This document shows, piece after piece, positions 12,871 through 36,948 of a DNA stretch of 40,479 nucleotides. The DNA lies in NCBI GenBank assembly GCA_015062525.1, contig SUUM01000007.1, positions 1 through 40,479 on the forward strand, written 5' to 3'. The translations under genes and the position numbers were made by a program. This stretch comes from Alphaproteobacteria bacterium (GTDB lineage: Bacteria > Pseudomonadota > Alphaproteobacteria > Rs-D84). Numbering within the stretch: position 1 is the first letter of the stretch; every line of letters begins with the position of its first letter. A model generated the notes under the pieces. The model did not search any database. It was not told the DNA's origin and saw only the letters and a program-made list of their open reading frames with translations.

Positions 12871-12899
12871 TTGCATTAAAATCCTGCTTTTGATATAAT
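12871..12899 (+). promoter_or_regulatory. Strong sigma-70-type promoter
   Basis: TTGCAT (12871-12876), a 17-nt spacer and a perfect TATAAT (12894-12899). The predicted start is near 12906, ahead of the structured RNA region and the gene at 13053. Confidence 0.8.
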
Positions 12900-12906
12900 T
12901 ATTACT

Positions 12907-13033
12907 GAATCCGATGGGAATTGGGTTCGGGGCTGTCTGTTATACAACAGGGGAAACCAAAAAACAGCAGAATCATTAAGGATATGATTTACGAACTCCC
13001 CGACCGCCTGAATTTCCATGGCGGTTAATTTTT
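12907..13033 (+). ncRNA. Candidate structured leader RNA or small RNA ending in a terminator
   Basis: About 127 nt between a strong promoter and the gene at 13053. Readable elements are a hairpin ctgtt-atac-aacag, a hairpin aatcat-N7-atgatt, and a closing helix ggttcgggg/ccccgacc (one bulge). A competing helix is gggttcg/cgaactc. The terminator accgcc (13003-13008)/ggcggt (13020-13025) is followed by ttaattttt. The closing-helix 3' strand shares bases with the terminator 5' arm, as in riboswitch expression platforms. No known riboswitch or SRP/6S consensus was recognised. It may be a cis-regulator of the exported-protein operon or an independent sRNA. Confidence 0.6.
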
Positions 13034-13052: not shown

Positions 13053-13991
13053 ATGCGAATTTCTGTTATGGTTTTGTTATCGCTGTGGGCGGGGGTGGCG
13101 CATGCCAACACCGACCTGAGCGCGGCGATTAAAAATGTCCGCGCGAGTTGCGGAAACATTAGTGCAGAACTGACCGACATGAAAAAAATAGCGGGTATTA
13201 CCACGGCCATAACGGGGGGCGGCACGGTCGCCGGTGGTGTTGCACTGGGAACCGGTATTGCCAAGTCTAAAATAGACAAAGAAATTCATAAAAACGAGGA
13301 ACTGATTGCCGCCCTGGAAGAAGCGGGCGCGGTGCGTGTCACCAGCCTTGATATGTTTTATGAAACTTTTGCGAGTGCCCTGGCCCAGACAGGAACAGCA
13401 AACGGACAATTATATGCCGCCCAATTACGGGTTAAGAAAAACAAACTGGAACAAAAATCTAAAAACCTGGGAAATATTCGTACGGGAACATTGGCGACCG
13501 CTACGGCAACCAATATCGCAGGGGCAATTATGTCCGGTACTAATCGGGTAAAGGGAGATTTGAAGCAACAAATTGATGAATGTTTATCATCGGTTAAAAC
13601 ATTATCGAATATTCGTATGCAGGCACGTATTTCACAAACGGCAACGGATGCCGAGCTGGCACGTGCCGAAGAAATTATTCGCGCATGCGATGCTTGGGCC
13701 ATGGTTGACATTAGTTCAATTAATAAACGTTCAACGGGCGCAACGGTATCAAGTGGTATCGGGGCGGGATTAGGACTTGCCGGCACAATAACATCTGCAT
13801 CGGCAAACTCAAAAGACGTTCGCGATGGCGATGACAAACAGAAAGAAAAGAACCTTAACACCGCGGCAAATGTGTTGGCGGGTGGCACAACGGCGGCCAG
13901 TTTGACCGCAACAATATTTAACGCGACACAAATAAGTGCAATTAAACGTGCGGCAACAGTTGCCGATGAATGCGAGGGGGCGCTGAAGTAA
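13053..13991 (+). CDS. Exported alanine/glycine-rich protein of unknown function
   Basis: 312 residues. A clear signal peptide (about residues 1-19, ending VAHA before NTDL) is followed by helical, Ala-rich sequence. Glycine-rich hydrophobic stretches occur near residues 48-70 (ITTAITGGGTVAGGVALGTGIA), 148-166 and 230-250. They resemble glycine-zipper membrane-inserting helices. Three Cys occur in the mature part before the C-terminal Cys. AGGGAG precedes ATG 13053. The next gene begins 1 nt after the stop, so the two are co-translated. I do not recognise a family; periplasmic or outer-membrane location is inferred. Confidence 0.75.
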   Translation: MRISVMVLLSLWAGVAHANTDLSAAIKNVRASCGNISAELTDMKKIAGITTAITGGGTVAGGVALGTGIAKSKIDKEIHKNEELIAALEEAGAVRVTSLDMFYETFASALAQTGTANGQLYAAQLRVKKNKLEQKSKNLGNIRTGTLATATATNIAGAIMSGTNRVKGDLKQQIDECLSSVKTLSNIRMQARISQTATDAELARAEEIIRACDAWAMVDISSINKRSTGATVSSGIGAGLGLAGTITSASANSKDVRDGDDKQKEKNLNTAANVLAGGTTAASLTATIFNATQISAIKRAATVADECEGALK

Positions 13992-27598: not shown

Positions 27599-29524
27599 AT
27601 GGAAATTACACAAGTTTTATTAATTGGTGGCGCAATATTGGGCGGACTGTTGACAATTACTTTGGGCGTTTTGTTTTTTGTGTCCAGAAAATCGCAAAAG
27701 GTTATGGAATCGCTGCTTATGATTATGACGCGACCTGAACGTGCCAAGGTGGCGGACGCCGTACGTGTACTGAACACTATGTTAGCGGACGAAATAAATA
27801 AAATCGAACAAAGTTTTCAGACCATGCGCGATACGCTGAACGCACAAATCGCAACAGCTGATGAATTAAAAAAGATTCTGACGGAACAAAATGAAAAACT
27901 TGTTTCCAATGCAGACGAGGCAACAAAAAAAATTGCGACCATGTCGGGACGATTGGATAATACTGTTGCGGGCCTGGGGCAGATTGTGGAATCCCAGTCA
28001 TGGACGGATGTAGAAAACGCCACCGACAGATTTATGACGTCTGTTAATGGGTTGTTGGGGCGGATTGACCAGACCGCACTTGACACCACAGAGCGCACAG
28101 GACAAATACAATCGCAGATTGATTCCTGGATTGACAGCGGCAAGACATTGGCGGAACATCTGGGGGACGAATTTAACAAGAATACAGAACAGATGAAAAC
28201 CCTGGCGGGGGAATCAGAAACCATGCGTGGAAAATTAGCGGAACTTGCCACATCCGTCGCAGGTGGATTTAATGACGTTAAATCATCCGCATCAAATTAC
28301 GAAGACATCATGGTACGAAACGACAGATTGCTGGACGGTCATCTGGATAAACTGGCGGAATTTAGCAAACAGTCCAAAAAGCAATTAACCAGCCAGATGA
28401 ACACGCTGACCAACACGGCGAACGTTGTCGCAGGTCAGGTACGATTGGCAGAATCATCAATAGACAAACAAACGCGTCGCCTGACGGATGCGGTGGAAAC
28501 ATTGATATCAACGGCGACAAGCACCGAAAATTCTGTACGCGGAATATCAACAGAGTTAGCAACGCTGACCAATCGATTTGATGGCGAAATCAAGGAATTT
28601 GCGACGGGGGTCGTGTCTGAACTTAAAACCGTATCAGGCGTTGCGAATGCCACACTTGAAAACACCAAAACCGCCGCGGGGGCGTTCAGCGAATCTGTGC
28701 GCGCAATGGCAACGGGTGTGCGTGAAACGCTGATTGAAATGAACACAGCGCACACGCAATTGTCTGGACAATCAGAAAACCTGATTAAGATGTCATCAGA
28801 AACGACGGCTCAGTTGCAACCATTGTCTGCATTGATTGAAAAATATTACTCTGCCCTGCCCGATTTATCACGTGGCAGTGTCGAGGCAAGTCAGACCCTG
28901 GAACAGATTGTAAGCAGTCTGAACGAAAAATTAAATCAGATGAAGACCACAGTCGCTGAATCCACGACGGCAATTTCTGATTCCGCCATTAAATTAGAGG
29001 ATTTGGCCGGTACATCACGCCAACAGATGATTGATTTGATGTCCGACTATGCCAAAGCGGTTAATACAATGCAGACCCTGAACAAGCAAATGATGGTCGC
29101 ACGCGCATCGGCGCCGATGGATGCAATAAAATCTGCGCCAACGGAATCGTTTGGGCACATCAGCAGCTCGGATTTCTTGGCACAGGGCGACAAGATGTTT
29201 GAAAAACTGCACGAACTGGCAATGGATTTAACGCGCGCAGCGGGCGCGGAAATTCCAGATGTAGTGTGGAAAAAATATCACAGCGGGGACAAAACAATCT
29301 TTTCAAAATGGCTGGCCAAGATGCTGAGCGCAGCGGACAAAAAACGCGTCAAAGAAATGCTAAAAGGCGACGCAGTATTTCGTTCCCAGGCGACACAGTT
29401 TGTACGCAGCTTTGATAAAATTCTGGCACGTGCACAGCAAACAGATAATGCAGATAAAGTATCAGCCACATTGATTAAAACAGATTCTGGTCAGATATAT
29501 ATTGCGTTGAAAAGTTATGTATAA
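27599..29524 (+). CDS. Membrane-anchored long coiled-coil protein
   Basis: 641 residues. A single N-terminal transmembrane helix (about residues 5-28) is followed by more than 450 residues of Ala/Thr/Ser/Glu-rich coiled coil. This part resembles the signalling domain of chemoreceptors, but no HAMP or receptor hairpin motif is seen. A compact C-terminal domain (about residues 515-641) contains VVWKKYHSGDKTIFSKWLAKML and ends SGQIYIALKSYV. Similar architectures occur in alphaproteobacterial proteins of unknown function. GGGGGAAGGA precedes the ATG. It is divergent from addA. Confidence 0.75.
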   Translation: MEITQVLLIGGAILGGLLTITLGVLFFVSRKSQKVMESLLMIMTRPERAKVADAVRVLNTMLADEINKIEQSFQTMRDTLNAQIATADELKKILTEQNEKLVSNADEATKKIATMSGRLDNTVAGLGQIVESQSWTDVENATDRFMTSVNGLLGRIDQTALDTTERTGQIQSQIDSWIDSGKTLAEHLGDEFNKNTEQMKTLAGESETMRGKLAELATSVAGGFNDVKSSASNYEDIMVRNDRLLDGHLDKLAEFSKQSKKQLTSQMNTLTNTANVVAGQVRLAESSIDKQTRRLTDAVETLISTATSTENSVRGISTELATLTNRFDGEIKEFATGVVSELKTVSGVANATLENTKTAAGAFSESVRAMATGVRETLIEMNTAHTQLSGQSENLIKMSSETTAQLQPLSALIEKYYSALPDLSRGSVEASQTLEQIVSSLNEKLNQMKTTVAESTTAISDSAIKLEDLAGTSRQQMIDLMSDYAKAVNTMQTLNKQMMVARASAPMDAIKSAPTESFGHISSSDFLAQGDKMFEKLHELAMDLTRAAGAEIPDVVWKKYHSGDKTIFSKWLAKMLSAADKKRVKEMLKGDAVFRSQATQFVRSFDKILARAQQTDNADKVSATLIKTDSGQIYIALKSYV

Positions 29525-30027: not shown

Positions 30028-30507
30028 ATGTCACGGATTTTACAATTACGGCGCGGGAATACCGCAGAACACGAAAACTTTACAGGTCAAATCGGCGAAA
30101 TAACAATGGACACGGATGCGAAAAACATACGCATACACGACGGGGAAACACCCGGCGGGACACCGATGGCACGGCGGGATGAAATACCAGACCTGACACC
30201 GTTTGATTATGTCATAGAATGGCAAATGCCCACAGCAGAAAACAACCACACATGGTACCGCAAATACAAAAGCGGCTGGGTTGAACAAGGGGGGATTATA
30301 CACAGTCCTGATACAACACCTGTTACACAGATACTGCCTATAAAAATGAACAACGATATGTATTGCTTGGTATACGGAGTGTATTTCAATAGCGCAAACA
30401 CAATAACTTCGCAAATCCGTAACAAGACATCTGAAAGTTTTGGCATAAAATGTTCTTTACAGGCAACAAATGTCGCTTGGTACGTTTGTGGCATTTCGAA
30501 ATCGTAA
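30028..30507 (+). CDS. Orphan phage-tail/tropism-determinant-like protein
   Basis: 159 residues. The first ~50 (LQLRRGNTAEHENFTGQIGEITMDTDAKNIRIHDG) match the N-terminal module common in phage tail fibres and receptor-binding proteins (Mtd-N-like). The pattern is RRG..AEN..FTG..GE.T.DTD...R.HDG. The remainder carries DYVIEWQMPTAENNHTWYRKYKSGWVEQGG and a C-terminal beta-rich part with two Cys. No other phage genes surround it. AGGGAATAATT precedes the ATG. It may be a domesticated surface protein or a cargo gene; related style to the glycine-rich gene at 17-1060 is inference. Confidence 0.75.
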   Translation: MSRILQLRRGNTAEHENFTGQIGEITMDTDAKNIRIHDGETPGGTPMARRDEIPDLTPFDYVIEWQMPTAENNHTWYRKYKSGWVEQGGIIHSPDTTPVTQILPIKMNNDMYCLVYGVYFNSANTITSQIRNKTSESFGIKCSLQATNVAWYVCGISKS

Positions 30508-31988: not shown

Positions 31989-33092
31989 CTAACCCTTGAT
32001 TTTTAACAATAATATACATCCAAACAACTTCACCTTGTTGTCCTGTATTACAATTAGATTGAATAAATCAAACAAATTTACACACACCATCGTATCAAAG
32101 CGGTCAATTCTAACAACAGGAACAATACCAAACAAATAAAAACGTCTACGCCTAACAACAAGATATGCTTTAAATTTTTGAAAATCATTTGTTTTAATAT
32201 GTTTACGTATTTTTTTTGACAATCTGCGGTCTATATAACGTTTTATACCATAACCATTACGAATACGGCACAATAAATCAAACATCTGTTTATGATCCGC
32301 CTCACACTCGTATGTTTTACGTATTTCATACATAATATGCCGAACAACATGGTGCCAGACATGTTCCGCAAATTCCGCTTTAGGCAAATTTGCTTTTAAA
32401 ATCAAATCAAAATTTGTTACAAATGCGTTATATTTAGAAACAGCCTTATCGTGCGACAGAAAAGCAGAATCCAACGAATCTGGACGTTGAAAGAAATAAT
32501 GATAGTAAGTTCCGTCGACTAATTCCAAATCTTTTGCACTTAAAACAATTTGTGTTAGAAAAACACTATCCTGAGAAGTACGTATTTCAGGCGGAAAGGA
32601 TATGTTATTATCTTTTATTAATTCAGATTTGTAAATAGCAGACCAAAACGCAGATGAAAAATTCACCATCCCCTTAGATAAAGCCGAACGTATCCAATGA
32701 CGACACGTTGTGCCGTTATTCGAGTTTGTCATCCATACATCGCCTTGGACCACATCTGCCCCAGTCTGAACTGCACATTCATACAGTTTCTGATAAAAGT
32801 CCAAATCAACATAATCATCAGGATCAACAAACCCAATGTATTCACCCGTTGCGTTTTTTAAACCAATATTTCTAGCAACCGCAACCCCTTGATTTTCTTT
32901 TTGGACAAATAATTTAATTCTGGAATCCTTGGCTGCAAATCCCTGAAGTTTTGATAATGTATCATCTGTTGATTTGTCGTCGATGCAAATTATTTCAATA
33001 TCGTGCAACGTTTGGTTAACCAATGCGTTCATACTGCGTTCTATATAATGCTCAACATTATAGCATGGAACAATAACTGAAACTTTTGGCAT
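31989..33092 (-). CDS. Family 2 glycosyltransferase
   Basis: 367 residues. The classic GT2 opening PKVSVIVPCYNVEHYIERSMNALVNQTLHDIEIICIDDKSTDDT is followed by GVAVARNIGLKNATGEYIGFVDPDDYVD, giving the nucleotide-sugar and metal-binding DxD-type motifs. The C-terminal ~120 residues are basic (KKIRKHIKT..., RRRRFYLF), suggesting membrane association. ATG 33092 follows GGGGAAATAAT. It forms a two-gene AT-rich operon with the DUF1796-glycosyltransferase fusion, likely adding sugars to LPS or a surface polymer. The substrate is unknown. Confidence 0.92.
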   Translation of the reverse strand: MPKVSVIVPCYNVEHYIERSMNALVNQTLHDIEIICIDDKSTDDTLSKLQGFAAKDSRIKLFVQKENQGVAVARNIGLKNATGEYIGFVDPDDYVDLDFYQKLYECAVQTGADVVQGDVWMTNSNNGTTCRHWIRSALSKGMVNFSSAFWSAIYKSELIKDNNISFPPEIRTSQDSVFLTQIVLSAKDLELVDGTYYHYFFQRPDSLDSAFLSHDKAVSKYNAFVTNFDLILKANLPKAEFAEHVWHHVVRHIMYEIRKTYECEADHKQMFDLLCRIRNGYGIKRYIDRRLSKKIRKHIKTNDFQKFKAYLVVRRRRFYLFGIVPVVRIDRFDTMVCVNLFDLFNLIVIQDNKVKLFGCILLLKIKG

Positions 33093-33115: not shown

Positions 33116-33202
33116 GGGTGGGGATGAAACAACCGGAGCACTGTTTTAGAAACTCGCCCTTTTGGCATTCATGTTTGGTTTTCCCATGAACGCGCCCCAC
33201 CC
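33116..33202 (-). promoter_or_regulatory. Structured 5' leader of the glycosyltransferase operon
   Basis: An 87-nt segment is closed by a perfect 8-bp helix gggtgggg/ccccaccc (33116-33123 with 33195-33202). An inner 9-pair hairpin gcgttcatg/catgaatgc includes one G-U pair. The helix lies 23 nt before the ATG, next to the ribosome binding site, so folding could affect translation. No known riboswitch consensus was recognised. Confidence 0.45.
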
Positions 33203-33227: not shown

Positions 33228-33461
33228 AAAAAAATGCCACAAAAACTGTGGCGACCGGGACGCTAGACAAATCATAGTCCACGCTAATGACCCCATTGAC
33301 CTTTGGCAAAGCCTGTTGTATAGTCAACGGCATCCCGGTCATTGACCGAGATTAAAAAACAAGCGCGCCAAAAACAATAAGATTAAATGCCTGTGGCGCG
33401 CCGTAGCGTGGATTTGAAAGAGCTTGTCTAGGGCTCCCGAATCCCACTCCCATGCGATTCA
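33228..33461 (-). ncRNA. Candidate ~234-nt structured non-coding RNA
   Basis: It lies between a minus-strand promoter and a strong terminator (gccaca/tgtggc with a T-run, 33228-33252). Reading 5' to 3' on the minus strand, long-range helices are ctagacaa/ttgtctag (8 bp) and tccacgcta/tagcgtgga (9 bp), separated by an asymmetric internal loop. They enclose a hairpin gcgcgcc/ggcgcgc and a nested arm aatgacc/ggtcatt. No open frame fits. It does not show tmRNA, SRP or RNase P signatures. It could be an independent sRNA or a terminated leader of the glycosyltransferase operon. Confidence 0.65.
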
Positions 33462-33467
33462 AGGTGC

Positions 33468-33496
33468 AGTGTAAAATATATTTTATGGATTTTCAA
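33468..33496 (-). promoter_or_regulatory. Promoter for the structured RNA
   Basis: On the minus strand, TTGAAA (33491-33496), a 17-nt spacer and TACACT (33468-33473). The predicted start is near 33461. Confidence 0.6.
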
Positions 33497-36563: not shown

Positions 36564-36578
36564 TTATAATCTAAAAAC

Positions 36579-36607
36579 TTGCAATTTCCAGTCTAAAACA
36601 CTATAAT
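36579..36607 (+). promoter_or_regulatory. ssrA promoter
   Basis: TTGCAA (36579-36584), a 17-nt spacer and a perfect TATAAT (36602-36607). The predicted start is near 36614. Confidence 0.8.
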
Positions 36608-36613
36608 ATACGA

Positions 36614-36691
36614 GCCGGAAACGGTGATGATTCTGAATCCGTTGTGAAATAGTCATTTTGGACTGGGGGGCGGTACCCCACAGCTCCACCA
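36614..36691 (+). ncRNA. ssrA: tmRNA acceptor piece (permuted gene, upstream part)
   Basis: It ends cagctccacca at 36691, the tmRNA 3' acceptor strand plus CCA. A T-arm precedes it, with stem tgggg/cccca and 7-nt loop ggcggta. The seven acceptor bases cagctcc pair with the first seven of the coding piece (ggggctg, 36723-36729, one G-U). Further in, gattc (36629-36633) and ttgt (36642-36645) pair with gaatc (36766-36770) and acaa (36755-36758) of the coding piece, as helix P2. A ~31-nt intervening segment (36692-36722) would be removed. Confidence 0.9.
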
Positions 36692-36722
36692 TCTGATGTG
36701 ATTGGGTGTCGCATTTGATTAT

Positions 36723-36948
36723 GGGGCTGACATAGATTCGACAGATGATAAAAGACAAACTGGGTGAATCCGACATGGCGTCGTTAAAAGCCGACTAAAA
36801 ACTGAATGGCGATAGAATCGCTGCGAACGACAATGTTCGCCTTGCAATGGCTGCCTAATGTGGCGTTGAATACGATTGGCAATTGTTGATTGTATTCGTT
36901 TTAGTTATTGCGGGGTCGGCCGGGGACCTGGCACCAGAACGCCCGGCG
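36723..36948 (+). ncRNA. ssrA: tmRNA coding piece (permuted gene, downstream part)
   Basis: It starts ggggctgacatagattcgac, the conserved tmRNA 5' end. The tag frame runs from GCG 36823 to TAA 36858 and encodes ANDNVRLAMAA, the proteolysis tag added to stalled proteins (possibly with an extra Ala if GCT 36820 is the resume codon). The 3' part ends with a GC-rich hairpin gccggg/cccggc (36919-36924/36942-36947) followed by a T-rich stretch, probably the transcription terminator. The exact mature 3' end is not determined. Confidence 0.9.

Follow-up and report, generated by a model that had tools for sequence, protein, structure and literature searches.

Antisense-controlled attenuators, for example those of the pT181 type, can adopt two mutually exclusive folds, one of which leaves an intrinsic terminator complete. 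The Rfam family sRNA-Xcc1 (RF02221) occurs in Xanthomonas integron cassettes, in Xylella and in prophages. sRNA-Xcc1 was mapped as an 88-nt RNA and described as a small RNA with many predicted targets (PMC2996969). In integron cassettes it lies upstream of symE (PMC12444791), Xylella contains seven copies (PMC12189769) and strong expression was reported for O157:H7 (PMC5331693). The antisense RNA C4 has two loops that pair with the ribosome-binding site and with a site upstream of it, and it is cut by RNase P at a GG at the 5' end of its helix P1 (PMC5320573).

The window analysed here is the whole stretch of 40,479 nt of contig SUUM01000007.1 (assembly GCA_015062525.1) from an alphaproteobacterium. 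From 33461 to 33228 its minus strand encodes an RNA of a predicted length of about 234 nt (predicted transcript start at about 33461). A preliminary description had placed here a structured RNA flanked by a promoter and a terminator of its own, and this part of it stands. The minus-strand fold has a predicted energy of −96.8 kcal/mol versus −68.6 kcal/mol (sd 4.8) for shuffled sequences (z = −5.9; 0 of 200 shuffles), and the structure is borne out by core covariation in 101 relatives and by a long-range complementarity that is specific to the locus. A promoter-like sequence TTGAAA-17-TACACT (33468-33496, minus strand) lies just upstream and has 9 of 12 consensus matches. These hexamers alone are no better than those of shuffled sequence; the promoter is instead backed by the layout in dozens of relatives, which have a TATAAT-like box immediately 5' of the 5' hairpin.

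All parts of the RNA given here are on the minus strand. The 5'-terminal hairpin H5, TTGAATCGCAT(GGGA)GTGGGATTC (33439-33462), has counterparts in relatives with a covarying stem after the −10 box. It is followed by the two parts of segment A'. Part 1, CTAGACAA (33424-33431), forms an 8-bp perfect long-range helix with TTGTCTAG (33263-33270) and part 2, TCCACGCTA (33404-33412), forms one of 9 bp with TAGCGTGGA (33278-33286). Both helices and the two internal arms that they enclose are present as originally described. Next come a variable arm, a predicted hairpin GGCGCGCC...GGCGCGC (33363-33402) whose sequence varies among copies, and the predicted local hairpin P4, TCTCGGTCAATGACCGGGA (33333-33351), whose 3' strand doubles as the 5' strand of P1; by eye, many relatives have counterparts CCCGAC...GTCGGG of P4. 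The core (33253-33340; 82.1 bits with covariance model R1) is the three-helix domain that is common to sRNA-Xcc1. Within it, the 5' strand of P1, ACCGGGATGC (33330-33339), pairs with GCGTCCCGGT (33254-33263) in a helix that covaries and that reads GACCGGG in this copy and GGTCGGG in most copies. P2 (33293-33331) is a hairpin of the comparative core structure with the conserved internal loop UAUACAACAGG..CCAAAG. The arms, i.e. the P3 hairpin and loop and the P3-P1 linker (33263-33292), are complementary to the upstream A', and their duplex with their own upstream region (−33.0 kcal/mol) is the best among the 12 loci of this genome. The RNA ends in an intrinsic terminator, GCCACAGTTTTTGTGGC + ATTTTTTT with a T run (33228-33252), which, unlike that of most copies, abuts P1 without overlapping it. 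The gene downstream (MPKVSVIVPCYN..., 31989-33092, minus strand) encodes a glycosyltransferase of family 2 (PF00535, E = 8.4e-37) and begins 160 nt past the core. The role of the RNA as a leader of this gene had been missed, as had a further RNA between the two (see below).

No Rfam family matched at 33228-33496, and for the main RNA this held even at E ≤ 10, in agreement with the initial judgement that it is not tmRNA, RNase P or SRP RNA. By Rfam or ARAGORN search the tmRNA, a permuted alphaproteobacterial one (RF01849, 149 bits; tag AANDNVRLAMAA), lies elsewhere in the window, at 36575-36948 on the plus strand. The faint resemblance to 6S RNA that had been suggested did not hold: the 6S model RF00013 gave 0 matches in the genome but did detect its control targets in E. 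coli and Caulobacter. The RNA is, besides, a gene leader with multiple copies. The GGGA loop of H5 resembles the CsrA consensus, and CsrA was considered as its partner; no PF02599 protein over the cut-off was found in 40 genomes of the genus, this one included.

By blastn, about a dozen loci with a common core CGTTGNTATACAACAGG..CCAAAGNCAACGGGGTCATT were found in genomes of the same genus. The covariance model R1 of this core was built from 13 seeds, which include both RNAs of this type in the window; the matches in the genus and in the order were not seeds, and E-values of such home-made models are rough. R1 found 12 copies in this genome of 1 Mb; a closed, one-contig relative has 13. The family was present in 101 of 115 genomes of the genus, with at least 38 copies in the richest genome (the genus scan scored 38 candidates per genome). 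Across the order, 164 of 190 sampled genomes, and 16 of 22 genera, had matches. A class-wide sample extended the family, by remote matches, to a few further alphaproteobacterial genera, among them one with a genome of 4.8 Mb. The named relatives are uncultured gut Alphaproteobacteria and assemblies labelled 'Rickettsiales bacterium'.

Among 101 distinct matches, 95.2% of the P1 and P2 cells of the core were paired, and double-sided changes were found in 183 cells versus 36 in shuffles. This signal was lost when the partners were slid by one to three columns. The alignment was fitted to the model, which favours pairing but does not alone explain the double changes. The comparative evidence for the reported RNA is much stronger than its folding. 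Judged by sequence, the family is a set of previously uncatalogued folded leader RNAs that are distant relatives of phage sRNA-Xcc1. In remote relatives the P2 loop is altered to UAUGUUCA. Four loci (L242, L243, L244 and L249), which precede secreted or other genes, represent a subtype whose P2 loop resembles AUAUAUUGAAAG and which has both a terminator and an upstream complement; this suggests a class broader than model R1. Another subtype with a different 5' half (L003, L004 and L012) precedes related PLD-like genes; at L012 (G000 contig C8, 1505-2386) two members flank a PLD-domain gene in the order RNA, PLD gene, RNA, lipoprotein gene.

A typical copy contains, from 5' to 3', a TATAAT-like box, H5, A', the variable arm, P4, the core, a terminator and the start codon of the next gene. 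In a strict hand count, 56 of 101 copies had H5 immediately 3' of the −10 box, with a stem that covaries and a loop that is mostly GGGA. A post-core hairpin followed by at least five T in 9 nt was found in 93 of 101. In most of 78 loci the core ends 39-59 nt before the start codon, typically about 48 nt, and for most genes 20-30 nt separate the terminator from the start codon. The downstream genes mostly encode secreted, outer-membrane or glycan-building proteins. Of these, 55 of 78 have signal-peptide-like N-termini by a crude rule that picks 2 of 31 and 19 of 103 ORFs of the background (start codons and signal peptides were both called by simple rules). Their Pfam domains include outer-membrane barrels, Opacity porins, GT2, GT-D, LicD, FkbM, RgpF, polysaccharide pyruvyl transferase (PS_pyruv_trans), PLD and beta-helix repeats. 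At L015 (1629-2147) the downstream gene probably encodes a superinfection-immunity protein (PF14373, a match assigned to this locus by a guess from sequence), which is odd among the surface genes. An integron attC or cassette array was rejected by inspection, as the copies are scattered over contigs and carry a promoter and a terminator. The window also encodes a protein with a major tropism determinant N-terminal domain (30028-30507, plus strand; PF18454, E 6e-14) and, next to it, a coiled-coil-like protein of 641 aa (27599-29524), which may be a context of a phage tail or of a receptor diversified by a retroelement.

The second copy in the window is on the plus strand (12905-13033). A promoter-like TTGCAT-17-TATAAT (12871-12899) precedes its H5 hairpin CTGAATCCGAT(GGGA)ATTGGGTTC (12905-12928), and its core (12925-13005; R1, 62.1 bits) is a short form without A' and variable arm. 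The terminator GACCGCC...GGCGGTT with a U-rich tail (13002-13033) has GACC in common with P1, and the gene of a signal-peptide protein (MRISVMVLLSLWAGVAHA..., 13053-13991) starts 47 nt past the core. The word tatacaacagg, which both window RNAs contain, had been regarded as possibly shared by chance. It is the conserved internal loop of the family core, and both RNAs match R1. The second copy also aligned over the full length of the sRNA-Xcc1 model RF02221 (1-87 of 87; 12925-13013) with 25.5 bits and E 0.011, at a cut-off of 53.

Between the reported RNA and the glycosyltransferase gene lies a second structured RNA in tandem (33116-33202, minus strand), 23 nt before the start codon. It scores 60.7 bits with covariance model R2, of which it is itself a seed, and forms helices P1, GGGTGGGG/CCCCACCC, and P2, GCGTTCATG/CATGAATGC. 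It has no Rfam match. R2 RNAs were 97% paired, with 51 double changes versus 11.5 in shuffled sequences. In nine strong matches the gene that follows is a glycosyltransferase or RgpF-like gene, its start codon lying 20-30 nt past the RNA where measured. The arms of the R2 RNA have no clear partner. Some weaker R2 matches coincide with R1 matches, and the R2 RNA may therefore be a remote paralogue of the same fold.

The relation to sRNA-Xcc1 was seen from both sides. The reported copy (33228-33475) had no RF02221 match at E ≤ 10 and thus stayed below the 53-bit cut-off. In this genus, RF02221 gave matches in 35 of 59 genomes (best E 3.7e-10, two loci above the cut-off) and in 0 of 14 control genomes. 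Several of these coincide with R1 positions, the family being usually below the RF02221 threshold. Conversely, R1 recovered two phage loci of sRNA-Xcc1 at the correct position (E 0.003 and 0.006), that of Aaphi23 lying 43 nt before ant and that of Acinetobacter 4316 lying 41 nt before a KilA-N gene. A blastn search of plasmids and E. coli genomes with the sRNA-Xcc1 consensus found nothing, the query probably being too short and divergent, and the Rfam C4 model RF01695 had no match in the scans made.

At 55 viral loci the next gene, where found, nearly always starts 101-125 nt past the AUACAA motif, mostly 101-116 nt. In the viral loci (L116-L195, L102 and L103) the two arms are each complementary to a site before this gene, the P3 loop to its Shine-Dalgarno region and the P3-P1 linker to a second site just upstream of that. 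The arms pair better with their own leader than with those of other loci (−17.1 versus −11.0 kcal/mol, sd 3.2), and their own leader was in the best 5% for 31 of 46. On this complementarity, phage sRNA-Xcc1 appears to be a C4-like two-site antisense RNA that acts on an adjacent gene of the antirepressor type, apparently unreported so far: a limited search that covered part of the sRNA-Xcc1 literature found no link to C4.

In the alphaproteobacterial family the partner of the arms lies in the 5' half of the same leader. Locus by locus, A' is complementary to the P3 loop and the P3-P1 linker, and the A'-arm duplex reached −30.1 kcal/mol with the own and −18.5 kcal/mol with other loci, the own partner being in the best 5% for 66 of 73 loci (these own-versus-other tests, here and for the phages, ignore kinship between loci, of which a few are close relatives). 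Within genomes, the own upstream region was the best partner of the arms at 6 of 12 loci here and at 10 of 13 in the closed relative, and the A'-arm pairs are thus largely private. Of 101 copies, 73 have exactly 4 nt, GACC, in common between P1 and the 5' strand of the terminator; in nearly all others the overlap is 2-6 nt. The A'-arm pairing occupies the strands of P3. It also appears to exclude P1 for geometric reasons, since A' lies outside P1 and its partner inside, with few linking bases. In predicted minimum-energy folds of 79 leaders, the A'-arm pairing was present in 78, the base of the terminator was closed in 63 and P1 was formed in 1. Forcing P1 in these leaders cost about 13 kcal/mol and lowered the terminator pairs from 8.5 to 4.5. 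The family appears to have mutually exclusive helices of which one includes a terminator strand, the pattern by which an attenuator or riboswitch is recognised. An antiterminator made from the 5' hairpin and terminator bases was also considered and showed no covariation by eye.

We think it reasonably likely that these multi-copy 5' leaders, divergent relatives of sRNA-Xcc1, control transcription into the next gene by attenuation. From the modelled folds we infer a two-state attenuator that would be off by default. In the off state A' would pair with the arms, and the predicted folds show the terminator intact alongside. If A' were displaced or the core stabilised, P3 and P1 would form, P1 would take GACC from the terminator and RNA polymerase would read into the gene. 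The trigger might bind at the conserved P2 loop, as a ligand or a protein. Alternatively, free copies of arms could act in trans on A', which the use of the arms as antisense in phages would suggest. A weak point of attenuation is the gap of about 13 kcal/mol, which is large for a small ligand. The lack of A' in the second window copy is a point against attenuation based on A', and expression of the downstream genes would be possible only via readthrough or an unseen promoter. Support for the attenuator model is strongest at the level of the family and weakest for the reported copy, where P1 and the terminator do not overlap, the gene is 160 nt away and exclusive alternative helices that include a terminator strand were not found. 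There, the RNA may just terminate and act as a small RNA, joined by the second structured RNA near the glycosyltransferase start codon.

This independence of terminator and P1 at the reported copy would also fit a trans-acting antisense small RNA of the C4/sRNA-Xcc1 type, in which the terminator would be the 3' end and A' an internal lock that is removed by processing. The core with its two arms is the same as in phage sRNA-Xcc1, whose arms are complementary to the region around the ribosome-binding site of the following gene; moreover, the mapped ends of sRNA-Xcc1 delimit a discrete species of 88 nt (PMC2996969), and C4 undergoes processing (PMC5320573). We nevertheless regard this as unlikely. 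Pairing of the arms with the downstream leader gave no signal in the alphaproteobacterial loci (own −12.0 versus other −11.5 kcal/mol; own among the best 5% in 7 of 78), their partner being in the own 5' half, and a terminator 20-30 nt before most start codons argues for a role in cis. The highly conserved P2 loop in a covarying three-helix core, together with exclusive helices and a terminator, could also indicate a riboswitch, with the loop as small-molecule aptamer and the rearrangement of A', P1 and terminator as expression platform. This seems quite improbable, as the downstream genes have no metabolic pathway in common, the loop changes in remote relatives, and phage sRNA-Xcc1, for which antisense action suffices as an explanation without a ligand, retains it in the form AUACAANA..RAA. 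Lastly, copies precede many unrelated surface genes, as would a non-regulatory insulator or 5' stabiliser travelling with surface-gene cassettes. Such an element would hardly explain the locus-specific A'-arm complementarity and the conserved P1/terminator overlap if these had no conformational function, and we consider it highly improbable.

Attenuation may take a more specific form, which we put forward tentatively and with some doubt. The leaders could represent a new class of self-antisense attenuators that combine a C4-type antisense domain and its own complement in one leader. Up to about 40 copies, largely private, in a genome of 1 Mb would then set which surface proteins and glycans an uncultured gut bacterium makes, possibly in a bistable, phase-variation-like manner triggered by free copies of the antisense arms. 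The family would be a large, almost unannotated RNA regulon across an order of gut Alphaproteobacteria, aimed at cell-surface genes and with many copies in genomes of about 1 Mb. sRNA-Xcc1, hitherto a trans-acting small RNA of unclear targets, gains a testable function in phages as a putative two-site repressor of the adjacent antirepressor gene. Taken together, the two suggest a single fold that serves both in an RNA of phage immunity and in a whole family of gene switches.

Compared with known systems, the family is closest in structure to sRNA-Xcc1, with which it shares the P1-P2-P3 layout, the AUACAANA..RAA internal loop, the 3' half composed of P3, linker and P1, and a comparable distance to the next start codon. 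Peculiar to the alphaproteobacterial form are the 5' hairpin, the complement A' upstream, the variable arm and a true terminator (with a T run in 93 of 101 copies versus 2 of 47 phage loci); its arms, unlike those of the phages, show no match to the leader downstream. The C4 RNA of phages P1 and P7 (RF01695) resembles it in mechanism, as a small three-stem RNA with two antisense segments just upstream of its target, and also in copy number, since A. baumannii genomes reportedly carry many; however, the complement of the alphaproteobacterial family lies upstream and a terminator intervenes. With transcription-attenuating riboswitches and antisense-controlled attenuators the predicted leaders would have in common two exclusive folds, one of them with a complete terminator, and they differ from the latter in that the antisense domain and its complement are part of one leader.
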